Of a DNA stretch of 24,503 bases, positions 4,698 through 19,898 are shown piece by piece. A model generated the notes under the pieces. It worked only from the letters and a program-made list of their open reading frames with translations, did not search any database and was not told the DNA's origin. The stretch is from a virus. Where the stretch lies: the IMG/VR virus record IMGVR_UViG_3300033049_000173, positions 1 through 24,503 of that record; one strand, written 5' to 3'. Positions within the stretch are counted from its first letter, which is position 1. Each line of letters opens with the position of its first letter. The translations under genes and the position numbers were made by a program.

Positions 4698-4801
4698 GCC
4701 CGCTCGACCTGGCGCTATGGGCTGAGTGGATGCGCCCGATCGGGATGGCCCTTGCTCTCCTGGTGCTCGCGTTCATCGCTGCGAGTGAGCTCCTGCCATG
4801 A
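4694..4801 (+). CDS. 35-residue single-span membrane protein
   Basis: This short frame reads MSPLDLALWAEWMRPIGMAL and continues with a hydrophobic stretch ALLVLAFIAASELLP. One membrane helix spans about residues 16-32. It is linked by ATGA overlaps on both sides, to a 14-codon frame upstream and to the RusA gene downstream. Such exact overlaps are the rule in this operon, which is the main reason to believe it is translated. Function is unknown. It is far from the tail genes where holins usually lie, and it lacks a partner endolysin here. It may be an early membrane-acting host-takeover peptide. Confidence 0.55.
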   Translation: MSPLDLALWAEWMRPIGMALALLVLAFIAASELLP

Positions 4802-5256
4802 GCATCACAACGAGTCGTCGACATGTGTTCTCAGCCTTCGTTGCCGGCATTCCCAAGCCTCAGGGTTCGAAGGCGTACAAGGGTCACCGCGGAGGCGTGC
4901 CCATTCTCGTCGAGAGCTCGAAGGCACTGCCCGCCTGGCGAAGAGACGTGAGCCAGGTCATTGAGGCTCGTTGTCTCGGGAATCGCAGCTTCAAGATATG
5001 TACGGGCCCGGTTCAAGTCCTTCTGACGTTCTACATGCCTCGCCCCAAGAGCGTGAGTCAAGCCAAACGCCCGCTGCCGGTCGTAATGCCGGATCTGGAC
5101 AAGCTCATTAGGGCAGTAGGCGATTGTCTGTCGAAGGCGGTGGTGCTCGATGACTCCCAGATCGTCGAGATATTCGCCAAGAAGCGCTACGCCGAAGGCC
5201 TCGTACCTCAGCCGGGCGTCGACATCGCGGTGTACGAGCTTGAGGTCATCTCATGA
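4798..5256 (+). CDS. rusA: RusA-family Holliday-junction resolvase
   Basis: This 152-residue protein would resolve branched DNA intermediates during phage recombination or replication. The RusA signature is clear: MPDLDKLIRAVGDCL at 97-111 and VVLDDSQIVEIFAKKRYA at 115-132. D99, D101, D109, D118 and D119 are candidate metal ligands, and K102 follows the family pattern. The N-terminal strand VAGIPKPQGSKAY is also typical ('G.P.pk.R.R'). Its length fits the family (about 120-150). ATGA overlaps join it to the genes on both sides. It pairs naturally with the PD-(D/E)XK nuclease and ssDNA-binding candidate downstream. Confidence 0.92.
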   Translation: MSITTSRRHVFSAFVAGIPKPQGSKAYKGHRGGVPILVESSKALPAWRRDVSQVIEARCLGNRSFKICTGPVQVLLTFYMPRPKSVSQAKRPLPVVMPDLDKLIRAVGDCLSKAVVLDDSQIVEIFAKKRYAEGLVPQPGVDIAVYELEVIS

Positions 5257-12811: not shown

Positions 12812-12884
12812 AGTGTGCAGCGAGTTGAGTTCTGCGCATGAAGCGCTACTCGACTCGATTGCGTTTTCGAGCACCGCTCGGTGA
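12762..12884 (+). CDS. Possible 40-residue cysteine-containing small protein
   Basis: A frame from the ATG at 12762 (or a GTG at 12804) ends at 12884 and overlaps the next gene as GTGA. It holds VCIHPRNVQVCKVCSELSS, with a CxxC pair, then a short helix. The GTGA junction and its bridging of the gap between 12811 and 12881 are the only support. From 12804 it would be 26 residues. Confidence 0.3.
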   Translation: MRPRNVCIHPRNVQVCKVCSELSSAHEALLDSIAFSSTAR

Positions 12885-13213
12885 CCAGCCGCCACTACTC
12901 CGGCCGCTGGCAGGCCTTCTCACGTCGAGCTCGCAACGTGTGGATTCGCCACCTCGGCTACACCTGCGCCGGCTGGCAACGCACAGCACATCCGTCCACT
13001 GACCTCACGACAGATCACATCGACCCGCGACATCTCGAGCAAGGCGTCACGATCCTGTGTCGCCGATGCAACTCCGCTCGAGGCGATCTCCCATGGACCG
13101 AACCGTTGATCACGATCGCGATGGTTGGCGATGTTCCGTTGAAAATTCCTGACCGAACCAACGCGATGAGGACCATCGACACGGGGGGCGGGTCGAAAGT
13201 TCAGCGGATCTGA
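12881..13213 (+). CDS. HNH endonuclease next to the terminase
   Basis: The product is 110 residues, from a GTG. The HNH beta-beta-alpha metal fold is seen in LTTDHIDPRH (D45, H46) followed by LCRRCNSARGD (C60, C63, N64). It has the CxxC knuckle of the motif's second half, but only one cysteine (C29, YTCAGW) before the His, so the zinc site may be partial. HNH proteins beside terminase genes are needed for specific DNA cleavage in HK97-type phages, acting with the large terminase. That role is especially likely here because the large terminase lacks its usual nuclease residues. The start overlaps a small cysteine-containing frame (GTGA). A short spacer with an inverted repeat separates it from the small terminase gene. 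Confidence 0.87.
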   Translation: MTSRHYSGRWQAFSRRARNVWIRHLGYTCAGWQRTAHPSTDLTTDHIDPRHLEQGVTILCRRCNSARGDLPWTEPLITIAMVGDVPLKIPDRTNAMRTIDTGGGSKVQRI

Positions 13214-13276: not shown

Positions 13277-13768
13277 ATGGCCCAAACCGCAGCCGAACGC
13301 AAACGCCGGCAGCGTGAGCGAGAGGACACCACAGGCCCAGAACCAAAGGCCGAAAGGCAACTGGCCCGTGTCTCGAGGCCGCTCCCCGCAGCGCCGGCAG
13401 ATCGTGACATCCCCTGGCATCCACAAGCCCGCGTCTGGTGGAACGCAATAGCAAAATCGCCACAAACGAAACGGTGGCTCGACTCCGATTGGGCTCAACT
13501 GCGAATAGTTCTCGTGCTCGTCGACCGATTCTGGAGGGCCGACGCAGAAGGCGACATCGACATGGTCGCGAAGCTGTCCGGACGGATCAACACCCTTGTC
13601 GGTCAGCTCGGCGGCACGCCTCGAGCCCGATACCTCATGGGCTGGGGAAACCAAGCCCCACCATCGCAACCAGCCCCGCTCGACATCGATGAGCCTGACC
13701 CTCAAACCAAAGAAACGAACGTGGTCGACATGGCCATGTTTGCTGGCCTTCACCGCAAGTCGTCATGA
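13277..13768 (+). CDS. terS: Terminase small subunit
   Basis: The product is 163 residues. It starts with a basic, disordered segment (MAQTAAERKRRQREREDTTG). A helical core follows, VWWNAIAKSPQTKRWLDSDW and IVLVLVDRFWRADAEGDIDM, then KLSGRINTLVGQLGGTPRAR. This is the pattern of actinophage small terminases ('W.....s....w...dw..l..la.l...'). The protein would recognise the packaging site as an oligomer and hand DNA to the large subunit. It overlaps the large subunit by four bases (ATGA). The family is recognised from this helical pattern and the position directly before the large terminase. Confidence 0.82.
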   Translation: MAQTAAERKRRQREREDTTGPEPKAERQLARVSRPLPAAPADRDIPWHPQARVWWNAIAKSPQTKRWLDSDWAQLRIVLVLVDRFWRADAEGDIDMVAKLSGRINTLVGQLGGTPRARYLMGWGNQAPPSQPAPLDIDEPDPQTKETNVVDMAMFAGLHRKSS

Positions 13769-15498
13769 CTGTCACAACCACCCTTCCAGACCGAGATCTG
13801 GGACCGACACTCGGTGTCGAGGTAATCGACTGGGCTCACACCTCGCTCGTTCACGGCCCAGGGCCGTTGCATGGCGACCCGTATCGGATGTCACCGCTAT
13901 TCCAGTTCCTCACAATGTGGGCCTACGAGGTCTACCCACAAGGCCATGCTCTGGCCGGCCATCGACGCTGGCCTCGAGTTGTGCTCACAATCCGCAAAGG
14001 AGCTGCCAAGACAGAATGGATGGCAGTCATCACCGGCGTCGAGCTGCATCACGAGGGCCCAGTCCGGGTATGCCGTTGGCTGGCTGATGGAACCCCTGTT
14101 GGTGCCCCGAAATCGACCCCTTATGTGCCGCTCATGGCGTACAACGCAGACCAGGCCGACGATCTAGCGTTCTCGGTGCTCTCCAAGATGGTCGAACACG
14201 AAACCTGCCCTACAAGAGCCGACTGGTCGGTAACCAAAGACGAGATCACCCGGGCCAACGGCATGGGCAAGGTCCAGGCGCTCGCCACCTCACCAGGCCG
14301 TGACGGAGCGCTCACCACTTTCCAGGGGTTCGACGAAACCCACCGAATGACTCTGCCTCGCCACCATGTTGCTCACAGCCTGATGCTCGAAAACGCTGAG
14401 AAGAACCTGCTCCTTGACGCCTGGTCGCTCGAAGCAACCACGATGCACGAACCGGGCCGCGGTTCGGTATCTGAGCACTCGACCGATGACGCAGAGTCCA
14501 TCATCGAATCCGACAACACCGACGCTGGCCTCCTCTACTTCCGACTGTCAGCCGACCAACACCTCGACCTGACCGCCCTTGATGACCCTGATGTCCGCTG
14601 GAAAGCGCTCGAGGACGCATCCGGAGTCAGCATCAACGCCGGGCTGCCAAGAGCCCGACTCGAATCAATCCATTCCCGCTGGGACCTGCCCCACACCGAC
14701 CGGCCCTACCTCGCTCGAGCATGGATGGCGCTCCCAATGTCATCGGCCGGGAAATGGACCACACCCGACCGCTGGTCAGACCTCACCGAACCACGAGACC
14801 TCCCAGAAGATCAATGCCCAATAGCGCTCGGTTTCGTATGCGCCGGCCCCACCAACGACGGCATCGCCCTCATCGGTGTCGAACTCGACTCCGGTTGGAC
14901 ATGGCCTGTCGGCATATGGACACCACCCAACGACTGGCCAGGCAACACCGTCTGGAACCAACCACGAGATGAAGTACTCGAAGCCGTCGCCGCCACCCAC
15001 GAACGGTGGACAGTGGAACGAATGCTCTGCACACCGACCCGCTGGGAAACCGAAGTCCAACGCTGGCGCGGCCGCTACGGATCCAAAGTCGTACGCGACA
15101 TGCGCCAAGAACAAACCCAGAAACTCATCCCGTCAATCTGGGCCACCACACGGGCCATCGATCGAGGCGACTGGAACCATTCCGGAGACCCCGAGCTCCG
15201 CTCCCATGTTCTGACCGCTGAACGCGAACAGAACGACAAATATGAAATGCCCGACGACACGTTCGGCTTCTTGATCGTCAAGTCAGCCACAGGCGCCCCG
15301 ATCGTCGCCGCTCTAGCCGTCGTCCTAGGACACGAAGCGAGACGCATGGCCATCGGATCCGGCGCCCTCGACGGCGAAGACGAAACACCCACCAAACCCC
15401 AAGTCCACGGCGGTGACCCTGACCAGGTCGCTGCAGCTCTAGCCCAGATCCGTAAGGAGACCGCCAATGCAAGACGAGAACTCAGAGGCGAAACCTGA
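13765..15498 (+). CDS. terL: Terminase large subunit with atypical nuclease residues
   Basis: This 577-residue protein is the ATP-driven packaging motor. The ATPase domain is intact: Walker A RKGAAKTE (77-84), Walker B FQGFDE (186-191, D190/E191), and a YNADQADDLAF segment typical of actinophage terminases. The C-terminal nuclease fold is recognisable along its length (IALGF...DGIALIG, WNQPRDEVLEAVAATHERW, ELRSHVLTAEREQ, PIVAALAVVLGHEAR). Three positions differ from the family pattern as I know it. 'GFDGS' is GFVCAG here (V358). 'ADPxxW' is CTPTRW (T423). 'KIDAAxA' is PIVAALA (V514). The usual metal-binding aspartates are thus all absent. No frameshift or stop explains this. DNA cutting may rely on the adjacent HNH protein. 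It overlaps the next gene by 32 bases. Confidence 0.93.
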   Translation: MTVTTTLPDRDLGPTLGVEVIDWAHTSLVHGPGPLHGDPYRMSPLFQFLTMWAYEVYPQGHALAGHRRWPRVVLTIRKGAAKTEWMAVITGVELHHEGPVRVCRWLADGTPVGAPKSTPYVPLMAYNADQADDLAFSVLSKMVEHETCPTRADWSVTKDEITRANGMGKVQALATSPGRDGALTTFQGFDETHRMTLPRHHVAHSLMLENAEKNLLLDAWSLEATTMHEPGRGSVSEHSTDDAESIIESDNTDAGLLYFRLSADQHLDLTALDDPDVRWKALEDASGVSINAGLPRARLESIHSRWDLPHTDRPYLARAWMALPMSSAGKWTTPDRWSDLTEPRDLPEDQCPIALGFVCAGPTNDGIALIGVELDSGWTWPVGIWTPPNDWPGNTVWNQPRDEVLEAVAATHERWTVERMLCTPTRWETEVQRWRGRYGSKVVRDMRQEQTQKLIPSIWATTRAIDRGDWNHSGDPELRSHVLTAEREQNDKYEMPDDTFGFLIVKSATGAPIVAALAVVLGHEARRMAIGSGALDGEDETPTKPQVHGGDPDQVAAALAQIRKETANARRELRGET

Positions 15499-15652
15499 CC
15501 GGGTCGCTCAAATCAACACTCTCGGCTACTACCTCGGCGCCGCGACTGTCGCTGTCGGTATCGGCCTGGTGTTCATGCCCGCCGGCGTGATCGCGGCCGG
15601 ACTGAGCCTTGTCGCTGATACGACGATGCGATCGATGGGCAGAACCAAATGA
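15467..15652 (+). CDS. Small membrane protein between terminase and portal
   Basis: The product is 61 residues: a polar N-terminus (MQDENSEAKPDRVAQIN), then hydrophobic residues of about 20-50 (YYLGAATVAVGIGLVFMPAG and VIAAGLSLVA). These form one long or two short membrane helices joined by MPAG. A basic tail ends it. AAGGAG (15453-15458), 8 bases before the ATG, is a strong ribosome site inside the terminase gene. The overlap of 32 bases with the terminase and ATGA with the portal shows it is truly expressed. Function is unknown. Its place in the head module does not suggest lysis. Confidence 0.75.
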   Translation: MQDENSEAKPDRVAQINTLGYYLGAATVAVGIGLVFMPAGVIAAGLSLVADTTMRSMGRTK

Positions 15653-16902
15653 CGATGCTCGCCCGCACAATCAGCCGCCAAATCGAAACCCGATCAGTGT
15701 CCCAGGACATGCTGAACGAGGCCATGGTCCGCAACCGTGGCCTAGCCGTCCCTCCCGGAACGCCACGCGTCGACCCGTCTACGGCGACAATGCATACCGC
15801 AGTGTTCGGCGCCGTGCGCCTTCTCTCAACAGCGATTGCCGGGCTGCCGCTCCACGAATACCAAGACATAACCAACGACCGCGGACAGACCTACAAGCAG
15901 AAATCCGCAACACAGCCGACCGTTCTAACCGACCCATGGCCCGATTGGATCCAATTTCGGTGGATGCAATACATGATGGTCTCATTGCTCCTTCGCGGCA
16001 ACGCTTTCGCTCTCATCGCCGCACGCGATCGGCTCGGCTACCCGACCATGTTGATGCCACTGCCAACCGACCAGGTACGGCTTCGCACCAAAGGCCGTGG
16101 TGCCTCTCGCCGTCTCGAGTACATCGTCGGATCTGAGCCAGTCGATCGAGACGACGTCGTTCACATGATCGGATTCCCCGACGACGCCACCAACGGCCTC
16201 ACAGGACTATCAGTAATTGAACATTTCGCCCGCACGATTGGCCTCTCGCTCGCCGCCGAAGAGTTCTCGCTGCGTTGGTTCACCGAGGGTTCGGCACCCG
16301 CCGCCGTGCTACAGACCGACGAAACGCTTGAGGCCAGCGAGGTCGAAGAAAACCAGGCCCGCTGGATGGCGTCTCATGGTGGCATGTCCCGCATACCGGC
16401 GGTGCTGTCGGGCGGGCTGAAATACGAGGCGGTGTCGATCACTCCAGAAGAGTCCCAGTTTCTCCAGACACAGGGGTTCGGTGTCGAGCAGGTCTCCCGA
16501 ATCTTCACCCTTCCGTTGCACAAGCTCGGAGCGATGAACAAACAATCGAACTGGGGAACCGGTGTCGAACAGCAGAACATCGGCTACGTCACTGACGCCC
16601 TGCAGAGTTGGATGATCCCCTGGGAACAGACAATCACGAAACTCCGCCCCCGTGGTCGCTACGTCAAATTCAACGTCAACGCCCTGCTGCGCGGCGACAC
16701 CGCGGCACGAGCCAAGTGGTATACGTCCATGCGCCTGATCGGAGCCATCAATAACGACGAAGTTCGTGCCTTCGAAGATTGGGCCCCGATACCAGGTGGC
16801 CTGGGCGAAGAGTTCTCCCAACCATTCAACCAAGGCGACTGGGCCGATGCCCGTCTCGACGACGACGAAATCCCACCACCACCCCCACCAGTGGAGGACT
16901 AA
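15649..16902 (+). CDS. Portal protein (HK97/SPP1-like family)
   Basis: This 417-residue protein would form the dodecameric ring through which DNA enters and leaves the head. Family features are in order. TATMHTAVFGAVRLLSTAIAGLPLHEY is the usual start of Phage_portal proteins. LLLRGNAFALIAARD follows, then PLPTDQVRLR, then DDVVHMIGFPDD. GLTGLSVIEHFARTIG and QGFGVEQVSRIFTLPLHKLG are the stem/crown-region signatures. The C-terminus is acidic with a polyproline run (DDDEIPPPPPPVED). The length is typical. The start codon overlaps the membrane-protein stop (ATGA), and the stop overlaps the protease ATG by one base (TAATG). Confidence 0.93.
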   Translation: MTMLARTISRQIETRSVSQDMLNEAMVRNRGLAVPPGTPRVDPSTATMHTAVFGAVRLLSTAIAGLPLHEYQDITNDRGQTYKQKSATQPTVLTDPWPDWIQFRWMQYMMVSLLLRGNAFALIAARDRLGYPTMLMPLPTDQVRLRTKGRGASRRLEYIVGSEPVDRDDVVHMIGFPDDATNGLTGLSVIEHFARTIGLSLAAEEFSLRWFTEGSAPAAVLQTDETLEASEVEENQARWMASHGGMSRIPAVLSGGLKYEAVSITPEESQFLQTQGFGVEQVSRIFTLPLHKLGAMNKQSNWGTGVEQQNIGYVTDALQSWMIPWEQTITKLRPRGRYVKFNVNALLRGDTAARAKWYTSMRLIGAINNDEVRAFEDWAPIPGGLGEEFSQPFNQGDWADARLDDDEIPPPPPPVED

Positions 16903-17708
16903 TGACCAGACCAGCCCAACGCCACGAACTCGGACCGATGACCCTGGCCGAAGTCCTCGCCGCACGTGACGGCCGCGCCCCGACCGCTGTTGCTCTCGCC
17001 GACCGGCCACTCATCGACCCACGTGACGCTCGAGCTATGCCTATGGGTGTCGGCCGCGCCGAGCTTCGCATGCAAGGCGACGACCAGATCTTGGCCGGTT
17101 ACGCCACCGTCTACGATGTCGGATACGAAATGTACGGCGGGCCTTCCCGATATGGCTGGATCGAAACAATGGTCAAAGGCTCCGGCGCCAAATCGTTGGC
17201 CGAGTCACCCGACGTCGTCCACCTCGAAAACCATATGGGCCGAGCCTATGGACGCACCAAATCCGGCACCCTCAAACTCAGCGAGGACAACACCGGCCTA
17301 GCCAACGAAGTGACCCTCGCCGCCGGCGACACCCGAGTCCCAGACCTGATCATCGCCCTCGAACGCCGCGACGTCGATGAGCAGTCCTTCGCGTTTCGGA
17401 TCATCCGCCAGGAATGGAACGAGGACTACACCGAACGGTGGATCACCGAGTACTCGATCGACCGAGGCGACACCTCCCACGTGACATTCGGAGCAAACCC
17501 GCACACGTCGGTTGCTACCAGAGGCGACGGAATGCTCGACCCCAACCGTCTGATCCTCGACCAGGCCCTGGCTGGGCTCATCGAAGCCGGCGAAACCGAC
17601 CCTCTCGCTGCTCTCATCCGCACAGTCGGACGAGACACGATCACCCAACCGAACGCTGGCCGATCAATCCGGCTAGCCCGAATCCAGGCAGACCTCCAGA
17701 TCGCCTGA
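16902..17708 (+). CDS. Prohead protease (HK97 U35-like)
   Basis: The product is 268 residues from the ATG at 16902, which overlaps the portal stop as TAATG. In-frame starts further upstream lie in the portal gene. It has a beta-strand AGYATVYDVGYEMYG, the catalytic His in LENHMGRAYGRT (H111), the Ser in DEQSFAFRI (S162), and TSHVTFGANPHTSV, matching the end of the protease fold. It would cleave the capsid's N-terminal scaffold-like region during maturation. Residues 1-50 and the final 60 are less conserved; the latter may act as scaffold. Its position between portal and capsid is the standard order. Confidence 0.9.
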   Translation: MTRPAQRHELGPMTLAEVLAARDGRAPTAVALADRPLIDPRDARAMPMGVGRAELRMQGDDQILAGYATVYDVGYEMYGGPSRYGWIETMVKGSGAKSLAESPDVVHLENHMGRAYGRTKSGTLKLSEDNTGLANEVTLAAGDTRVPDLIIALERRDVDEQSFAFRIIRQEWNEDYTERWITEYSIDRGDTSHVTFGANPHTSVATRGDGMLDPNRLILDQALAGLIEAGETDPLAALIRTVGRDTITQPNAGRSIRLARIQADLQIA

Positions 17709-17841
17709 CAACCCCAACCCGCCGAGGCCACGCCGCTCGCCCACGCCGCCGCAAGGCACCTGGACGACGCACCTGACCTGACCCATAGGGGAAATCCGCC
17801 CAAATCCGGGCACACCAACCCTTGATACAGGAGAAAACCAA

Positions 17842-19239
17842 ATGACACTTCTAGAACGAATGCGCCGCGCCCTAGCAGCCCTGCTCGAGCAGCGCGGAAC
17901 CCTCGTAACTGAACGTGACGCCATCGTCACCACCGCGGCCGAGGAACGCGGCGAGGACGCAACCCTCACCGATGAAGAGACCGTCCGATTCGACGCTCTC
18001 CGCACCCAAATCGGCACCCTCGACACCGACGAACTCGAGCCTATGCAGGCCCGAGTCGCCGAGCTCGAAGCCGACGCCGAACGAGACGCCCGAGCAGCCG
18101 AAGCAGCAACCCTGCTCGACACCCACAACGGGCCAACCAGCCCAGATGTGCGTATCACCGGCGAACCCGACCTCTATGTGAGAGGCGGCACCAACGGGCT
18201 GCTGATCGACATGTACCGGGCTCAGATCCATCATGACCCCGCCGCCATCGAACGTCTCGCCCGCCACCGCCAACACGAAGAGACCCGTGCCGGCACCACT
18301 GGCTCTGTTGGCGGGCCTGCCGGCGGGCTCATGCCGCCCCAGTTCCTAACCGATCACTGGGCACCTGTGCTTCGGGCCGGCGCACCGTTCCGGCGTATGT
18401 GCCGCCAGCTTCCACTCCCATCGAGTGGAACTCGGTTCGAGATCACCAAAGGAGTCCAGAAGCTCGACACCGCCGCTCAAGCCGCCGAGGGTGACGCTGT
18501 TGCTGACCAGACCGGGACAACCACCGATCTCGATGTGAATGTGAAGACCATCGCCGGCCAAACCACGGTGTCTCGCCAACAGCTCGAACGTGCCGTCGTC
18601 GGCATGGAAGAGCTCTGGTACGGCGACATGGGCCAGGACTACTTCACTGGCCTTGATGGCCAGCTCGTCAACGGCGCCGGAACATCAGGCACCCACAAGG
18701 GTGTGATCCCATCGGTGACCGGCGGCAACACCGTCGCCTACACCGATGCCAGCCCAACCGCGGTCGAGTCTCTCCTCAAGATCGCTGACGGGATTCAACG
18801 GATCACCACCGGCCGGTTCCTGCCACCGGACCTGATCGTGATGCACCCACGCCGCTGGGGCTGGTACACAGCCGCGGTCGACACCTCGGGCCGGCCACTG
18901 CTCGGCGTCGAAACTGACGCCCGCAACGTCGTCGGCCACGGCGAAGCCGCTGCCACCGGGATCGTTGGTTCAATCCTCGGGATACCTGTCCTGGTCGATG
19001 CCAACGTGCCAATCAACCTTGGCGCCGGCACCAACGAAGACGCGATCATTATCGCCGTAACCGACGACCTCCTCCTCTGGGAAGAGAACGGCGGCCAGCC
19101 GCGAGAGCTCCGCATCGAGATCCCATCCAGCCTCGAAGTGACCCTCGCCGTTTACGGCTACTCGGCGTTCACCGCTGAGCGCTACGTCGCAGGCATCGCA
19201 TCCATCGAAGGCACCGGCCTCGTAACGCCCACTTTTTGA
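17842..19239 (+). CDS. Major capsid protein, HK97 fold
   Basis: The product is 465 residues. Residues 1-95 are a charged coiled coil (LLERMRRALAALLEQRGTLV; RVAELEADAERDARAAEAAT), the delta/scaffold domain removed by the protease in this family. The rest is HK97 fold. AGGLMPPQFLTDHWAPVLRA begins the E-loop region, PSSGTRFEITKGVQKLDTAA follows, then TIAGQTTVSRQQLERAVVG. LPPDLIVMHPRRWGWYTAAV and GIVGSILGIPVLVDANVP are A/P-domain signatures. AGGAG (17831-17835) precedes the ATG with suitable spacing. It is followed directly by an HNH gene whose TTG start overlaps the capsid stop. The 133 bases upstream hold no gene. Confidence 0.94.
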   Translation: MTLLERMRRALAALLEQRGTLVTERDAIVTTAAEERGEDATLTDEETVRFDALRTQIGTLDTDELEPMQARVAELEADAERDARAAEAATLLDTHNGPTSPDVRITGEPDLYVRGGTNGLLIDMYRAQIHHDPAAIERLARHRQHEETRAGTTGSVGGPAGGLMPPQFLTDHWAPVLRAGAPFRRMCRQLPLPSSGTRFEITKGVQKLDTAAQAAEGDAVADQTGTTTDLDVNVKTIAGQTTVSRQQLERAVVGMEELWYGDMGQDYFTGLDGQLVNGAGTSGTHKGVIPSVTGGNTVAYTDASPTAVESLLKIADGIQRITTGRFLPPDLIVMHPRRWGWYTAAVDTSGRPLLGVETDARNVVGHGEAAATGIVGSILGIPVLVDANVPINLGAGTNEDAIIIAVTDDLLLWEENGGQPRELRIEIPSSLEVTLAVYGYSAFTAERYVAGIASIEGTGLVTPTF

Positions 19240-19898
19240 GTTGGCTAGTGGCTGAGTGGAGTTGCTCTCGCTGCGGCGAGAGGGATGGGATTATGGCCTA
19301 CGGCAAGAATCCCTGGTGCAAGGCGTGTTATCGGGAGTGGCACCGCTCTCGGTACACGCCGAGCACCGGGGCTGACGACGACGTGAGACCGTGCGCCAAA
19401 TGCTGGGCACTCTACCGTCCGAAGCAGCGTCGACCGTCGCTGTTCTGCTCTCGGGTTTGTAAAGACGAAAGCAGAAAGGCACAGAACAAAGCTGATCGGA
19501 TCGCATCGAAACAGAATCGGGACTGTGCGTGGTGTGGCGGGCTGGTGTCGAGTTCGATGCGATCCGACGCCAAATTCTGCTCCTCTGCGTGCAACTCGAA
19601 GGCACATGCATCCACCCGAAAAGCATCTACCCGAGCAGGCCTTACGAATCGCTCGGGTGATCTGATCTCGCTCTCGTACGTGGGCGAGAGGGACCGTTGG
19701 AGGTGTGGGATCTGTGGTGGGCGGGTGAGTAAGGGGCTGGTACACCCAGATCCGAGAGCACCATCGCTTGATCATGTTGTGCCTCTTTCACTCGGAGGTG
19801 CGCCAACAGACCCGACCAATCTCCAACTCAGTCACTTGCGTTGCAATCTCAGAAAAGGGAATACACCCACAGGCGAGCAACTCCGCCTTATCGGGTGA
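19236..19898 (+). CDS. Zinc-rich HNH endonuclease, probable homing enzyme in the head operon
   Basis: The product is 220 residues if the TTG at 19236 is used; a GTG at 19248 is possible. No ribosome site is seen. The ATG at 19290 would cut off the first zinc pair and is unlikely. There are four cysteine clusters: CSRCGERDG with CKACYREW, CAKCWALY with FCSRVCKDE, CAWCGG with FCSSACNSK, and CGICGG leading into the HNH core SLDHVVPLSLGG...LSHLRCNLRKGN. H and N of the HNH are present. Extra zinc fingers before the HNH give DNA specificity in free-standing homing enzymes. Codon choice (more CGG, TCT, GTG) differs somewhat from its neighbours. It sits immediately after the capsid stop, a frequent insertion place for such genes. 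Confidence 0.85.
   Translation: MSWLVAEWSCSRCGERDGIMAYGKNPWCKACYREWHRSRYTPSTGADDDVRPCAKCWALYRPKQRRPSLFCSRVCKDESRKAQNKADRIASKQNRDCAWCGGLVSSSMRSDAKFCSSACNSKAHASTRKASTRAGLTNRSGDLISLSYVGERDRWRCGICGGRVSKGLVHPDPRAPSLDHVVPLSLGGAPTDPTNLQLSHLRCNLRKGNTPTGEQLRLIG

Follow-up and report, generated by a model that had tools for sequence, protein, structure and literature searches.

The catalytic center of the large terminase (TerL) of phage HK97 consists of D302, D388, and D471, with K463 beside them (PMC9410871), and in that phage the HNH protein gp74 promotes cos cleavage, for which it has been proposed that each enzyme cuts one strand (PMC9410871, PMC11331095). In the G20c nuclease, D294, D347, and D429 are indispensable, whereas a D300N mutant is near wild type (PMC5389553). 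In phi29, the packaging ATPase is gp16, whose nuclease is vestigial and whose C-terminal domain retains DNA binding (PMC7672431). In gp16 and its relatives, this domain is RNase H-like and without catalytic residues; phi29 has unit-length, protein-capped genomes, a packaging RNA (pRNA), and no small terminase (TerS). The cluster J mycobacteriophages form plaques and have linear genomes with defined 4-base 3′ overhangs; the published description treats their terminase genes and the HNH genes at the left end, and the passages found make no mention of missing aspartates (PMC3706429).

The window analyzed here (IMGVR_UViG_3300033049_000173, meaning the whole 24.5-kb stretch of DNA) is a fragment of the genome of an uncultured phage, and the record is incomplete. 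Judging from sequence and model, its TerL resembles gp16 in being a packaging ATPase with an RNase H-like C-terminal domain that lacks the catalytic residues. We consider it a vestigial-nuclease TerL. Such proteins are known from phi29-like phages, but the packaging setting differs here.

Packaging and head genes of the window

4798 to 5256, plus strand: RusA-like resolvase, another possible cutter
12881 to 13213, plus strand: HNH/endonuclease VII-like protein that matches its family weakly; candidate cos cutter
13277 to 13768, plus strand: terS, small terminase (Pfam Terminase_7, E = 1e-17)
13765 to 15498, plus strand: terL, 577-aa packaging ATPase with a vestigial nuclease domain (phrog_9 match)
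13993 to 14016, plus strand: Walker A of TerL, RKGAAKTE, residues 77 to 84, the motif of the RKGxAKTE clade
14332 to 14337, plus strand: Walker B of TerL, D190-E191
15467 to 15652, plus strand: small membrane-protein-like ORF between terL and the portal gene, as in Courthouse
15649 to 16902, plus strand: portal protein, closest to cluster J mycobacteriophages
16779 to 17708, plus strand: head maturation protease, possibly with its true start farther downstream
17842 to 19239, plus strand: major capsid protein, closest to prophiGD43A-5, cluster J, and Marvinvirus phages
19236 to 19898, plus strand: second HNH endonuclease, alternative cutter (clear family match)

The terL frame runs for 577 codons without a stop, and its product matches phrog_9, the phage large-terminase family (E = 1.6e-37), and no Pfam model. 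The protein has what a packaging motor needs: an ASCE ATPase with the Walker A lysine and the Walker B DE, and with K82, T83, D190, and E191 conserved. In a structural comparison of the AlphaFold2 model, the ATPase fold matches that of P74-26 TerL (Z 19.7). The first-pass annotation had described a clean frame and intact Walker motifs, and the ORF, its coordinates, the residue numbers, and the motifs are all as it described.

The gene order is terS, terL, portal. The portal and capsid proteins have their closest relatives in cluster J (Courthouse, WXIN), Marvinvirus, and prophiGD43A-5. Since this part (15649 to 19239) is like cluster J and Marvinvirus while terS and terL go with another TerL family, the head module is mosaic. 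The window further encodes a primase-helicase, an exonuclease-like protein, and, at its left end, an integrase.

Three aspartates lost from a conserved nuclease fold

14749 to 15363, plus strand: C-terminal RNase H-like nuclease domain, about residues 329 to 533 (AlphaFold2 model)
14836 to 14838, plus strand: V358 (GTA, codon start 14836), replacing catalytic aspartate 1 (HK97 D302)
14857 to 14859, plus strand: D365, the sole site acid retained
15031 to 15033, plus strand: T423 (ACA, codon start 15031), replacing catalytic aspartate 2
15280 to 15282, plus strand: K506, retained, 8 residues ahead of position 514, the spacing of HK97 K463 to D471
15304 to 15306, plus strand: V514 (GTC, codon start 15304), replacing catalytic aspartate 3 (HK97 D471)

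The nearest homologues of the window TerL, at 31 to 41% identity, form the RKGxAKTE actinophage clade (GAL1, GTE5, MacGully, and F-cluster mycobacteriophages), which shares its gene order and the upstream HNH gene. Unlike the window TerL, which has V358, T423, and V514 at these positions, this clade keeps the aspartates throughout. The comparison covered 141 homologues, found in cultured phages, IMG/VR contigs, and prophages. Positions 358 and 423 each hold D in 140 of the 140 that can be aligned (the other is a fragment), and position 514 does so in 138 of 138, the remainder being gaps; the window TerL is the sole exception. A second, more accurate alignment (MAFFT L-INS-i, 60 sequences) gave D in 60/60, 60/60, and 59 sequences plus one gap. 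Both alignments thus bear out the earlier observation of V, T, and V in place of three nuclease aspartates. None of the three metal-binding carboxylates is kept, while D365, H481, and K506 are retained.

The fold of the domain is preserved. An AlphaFold2 model (49 sequences, mean pLDDT 89) shows a complete RNase H fold, in which V358 ends the strand 352 to 359, T423 ends the strand 416 to 423, and V514 starts the helix 514 to 531. The model superposes on HK97 TerL (6z6d) with Z 27.2 and on the G20c nuclease (5m1f) with Z 16.4 (rmsd 3.2 over 176 residues), and a sequence match pairs HK97 D302 with window position 358. Where at least 90% of relatives share a residue, the window TerL keeps it at 66% of positions in its ATPase half and 63% in its nuclease half. 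Such near-equal conservation fits a structural role more than decay.

It is well supported, by the sequence, the conserved fold, and the published mutants of a homologue, that the window TerL nuclease is inactive, one of two options that had been raised at first. The other, a site rebuilt with D365, E428, or an unrecognized acid and still able to cut, would be in keeping with the retention of D365, H481, and K506 in an intact fold, and the sister TerL family discussed below often shows a single D changed to H, N, or Q, so that some variation may be tolerated. However, D365 is the invariant fourth acid of the TerL family and E428 is the commonest residue at its position (E in 86 of 140 relatives); both are thus family-typical, and neither replaces the lost aspartates. 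By its spacing, D365 is the likely counterpart of G20c D300, the dispensable acid, whereas each of the three G20c aspartates is indispensable, and a hydrophobic V at positions 1 and 3 with T at position 2 is unlikely to hold two metals. We regard a rebuilt site as highly improbable. An error in sequencing or assembly has only the rarity of V/T/V in its favor. The terL DNA is identical in a contig (L001) from another metagenome record, assembled independently; its one difference from the window is the base at 18356, a variant also present in a third contig. An identical terL in an independent assembly with a separate variant elsewhere makes a sequencing error very unlikely; in addition, the local frame and nearby motif residues are conserved, and reaching GAT or GAC would take at least two base changes from GTA, at least three from ACA, and at least one from GTC, at least six in all. 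We consider the chance of an error negligible.

The variant at 18356 is a one-base A/T difference within the capsid gene that changes H to L, and two other contigs share the alternative.

The V/T/V state appears confined to this lineage. Viral contigs were searched with the full-length protein, with its nuclease domain, and with the portal protein, and only near-identical contigs and intact relatives came back; a profile search of viral contigs gave no other V/T/V member among the matches listed, and neither did the TerL protein and a profile against genome contigs, nor a search of 396 genomes of one phylum. Within its clade, the window TerL forms a long basal branch (2.79), and the searches yielded no intermediate relative.

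Aspartate loss in a sister TerL family

The same kind of loss is found in a sister TerL family with an RQNGK Walker A (89 sequences, 80 of them different). All three aspartates are present in 45 of the 89, and one to three are missing in the other 44. The Courthouse clade (10 sequences, some of them almost identical) has none of the three, and neither do the TerLs of L182 and L218 (H, K, S) or that of Cutibacterium phage PHL092M00 (S, V, S), this last being a single distant sequence and less certain. A tree built from the ATPase part requires at least eight changes to explain the degenerate state, and at least five to explain loss of the third aspartate. Some activity may survive a single change to H, N, or Q; the full three-aspartate losses should leave none. 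Dead TerL sites seem to recur in actinophages and to have gone largely unremarked; we found no report of recurrent aspartate-less TerLs in the open-access literature searched, which is not proof of absence.

Cluster J (Omegavirus) offers the closest parallel. In the Courthouse TerL, gp10, multiple and profile-profile alignments place Y328, V/G at 382-383, and T/Y at 463-464 where the three aspartates would be, and the AlphaFold2 model of this protein keeps the fold (Z 26.8 to HK97 TerL, Z 15.4 to the Sf6 nuclease). Like the window, these phages have HNH genes upstream, related portal and capsid proteins, and a small membrane ORF between terL and the portal gene. They differ in belonging to the RQNGK family, in having Y, G, and T/S/A as replacements, and in being cultured, with known 4-base 3′ ends. 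The replacing residues differ from V/T/V, and the loss is thus independent. Their defined overhangs and plaques imply that a precise cut is made without a recognizable TerL site. In such cultured phages, a protein other than TerL therefore probably does the cutting, and the HNH protein beside the motor is the likeliest one.

The TerLs of L146 and L147 (Marvinvirus and prophiGD43A-5) keep aspartates 1 and 3 and have Q at position 2, and a subclade (L185, L186, L191, L203, and L215) has H for aspartate 1 with the other two kept; by its sequence, this subclade is possibly still active with altered metal use. Cluster J phages also encode, extra to the full TerL, a 229-aa ATPase-only TerL-like protein (Courthouse gp2, L145 599 to 1288), to which the published description assigns no clear role (PMC3706429). 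A nuclease domain split off elsewhere was considered and rejected: of the two other Courthouse proteins annotated as terminase, gp2 is ATPase-like and gp4 has 77 aa and no Pfam match, and the window has no second TerL.

HNH neighbors and the question of cutting

The upstream HNH gene lies 884 bases upstream of the terL start and just upstream of terS. Its product has the D-H and CxxCN elements, and the second Cys of the first CxxC, a zinc cysteine, is replaced; it scores 16.8 bits against Pfam HNH, below the cutoff of 21.4. The second HNH gene directly follows the capsid gene, and its product has several extra cysteine-rich stretches.

In the window's own TerL clade, where TerL is intact, 76 of 78 loci carry an HNH gene ahead of terL, and adjacency alone is thus no evidence of outsourced cutting; we discarded it as evidence in itself. 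In the sister family, among the matches listed, the packaging genes have an HNH gene next to them at 32 of 34 loci with a degenerate TerL, versus 12 of 29 where TerL is intact (Fisher P = 5e-6). These counts cover loci with enough context and use HNH models built here; near-identical loci enter separately, and five cultured phages within the 32 were scored with a broader criterion than the other loci. After correction for relatedness, the association is not significant, the comparison being underpowered with about five independent pairs (1.6 the same way, 0.1 opposite). For two degenerate TerL loci (L147 and L239), no HNH gene was found nearby among the matches listed. At the right genome end, across cos, an endonuclease or HNH gene is the last or second-last gene in all five of these cultured phages with degenerate sites (PHL092M00, TM4, Jung, BBQValindra, and Parada); Pfam support for HNH is firm for PHL092M00 and TM4 and weak or none for the other three. 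The pattern fits a relationship in which loss of the TerL site needs an HNH partner, yet the partner does not force the loss. The suggestion that cutting had moved to the adjacent HNH enzyme is plausible and gains strength from other actinophages, in which dead TerL sites recur together with cos-adjacent HNH genes; adjacency alone adds nothing, given its prevalence beside intact TerLs, and the window protein is a weak family match. HK97 is similar in having an HNH gene in the packaging region, the same overall TerL fold, and the equivalent of K506, but there gp74 stimulates cleavage by a TerL that has D302, D388, and D471, whereas the window TerL has lost all three.

We somewhat favor the idea that the window TerL is a motor only and that cos is cut in trans by another phage protein acting with TerS, most likely the upstream HNH protein and next the second one. 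TerL would translocate DNA without cutting it, and TerS would mark the site; packaging would be of the cos rather than the pac type, and the HNH protein would make the initiation and termination cuts in trans, on both strands. By analogy with the C-terminal domain of phi29 gp16, the vestigial nuclease domain may guide DNA or dock on the portal. Against this stand the restriction of the loss, within its TerL family, to the window lineage, the presence there of HNH genes alongside intact TerLs, the below-cutoff score and missing zinc-finger cysteine of the window HNH protein, the association that loses significance once relatedness is considered, and the degenerate loci in which no HNH gene was seen. 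More broadly, and with a little less than even confidence, we propose that several actinobacterial tailed-phage lineages, this one included, have split translocation from cutting, keeping the TerL nuclease fold only for DNA guiding or portal docking and leaving both strand cuts at cos to a separate HNH protein.

Two other readings also take the nuclease to be dead. It could be that no TerL cut is needed, as in phi29-like unit-length replication, or that a different enzyme cuts, such as the second HNH protein, RusA, or a host enzyme; gp16 is a precedent for a packaging ATPase with a vestigial nuclease, and the window encodes RusA, the exonuclease-like protein, and the second HNH protein. Unlike phi29, however, the window has a terS, an HNH gene, and a complete RNase H fold; no pRNA was matched by Rfam at gathering scores in this 24.5-kb fragment, no DNA polymerase, protein-primed or otherwise, was noticed within it, and terS, primase-helicase, and integrase are present as in temperate phages that package concatemers. 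With terS present and no Rfam match in this incomplete record, phi29-like packaging was set aside as unlikely, and we hold this group of explanations as a whole to be unlikely. A decaying prophage or defective element, in which the nuclease was lost as packaging ceased, would account for the very long TerL branch, the many further family-conserved TerL residues that have changed, and the integrase at the left end. It is hard to square with an uninterrupted terL with intact Walker motifs, with intact terS, portal, protease, and capsid genes, with near-identical contigs assembled separately, and with conserved positions kept about equally in the ATPase and nuclease halves, and we consider decay improbable.

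For the motor-only reading, the cluster J and Cutibacterium phages would allow the question of cutting to be put to bench tests. Phages with an aspartate-less TerL and precise ends would demonstrate that the whole of the cutting can be carried out by a different enzyme. An annotation as terminase large subunit would then no longer imply a nuclease, which bears on the prediction of packaging type. If translocation and cutting have indeed been split, the TerL site would have been lost after an HNH protein took over the cutting.
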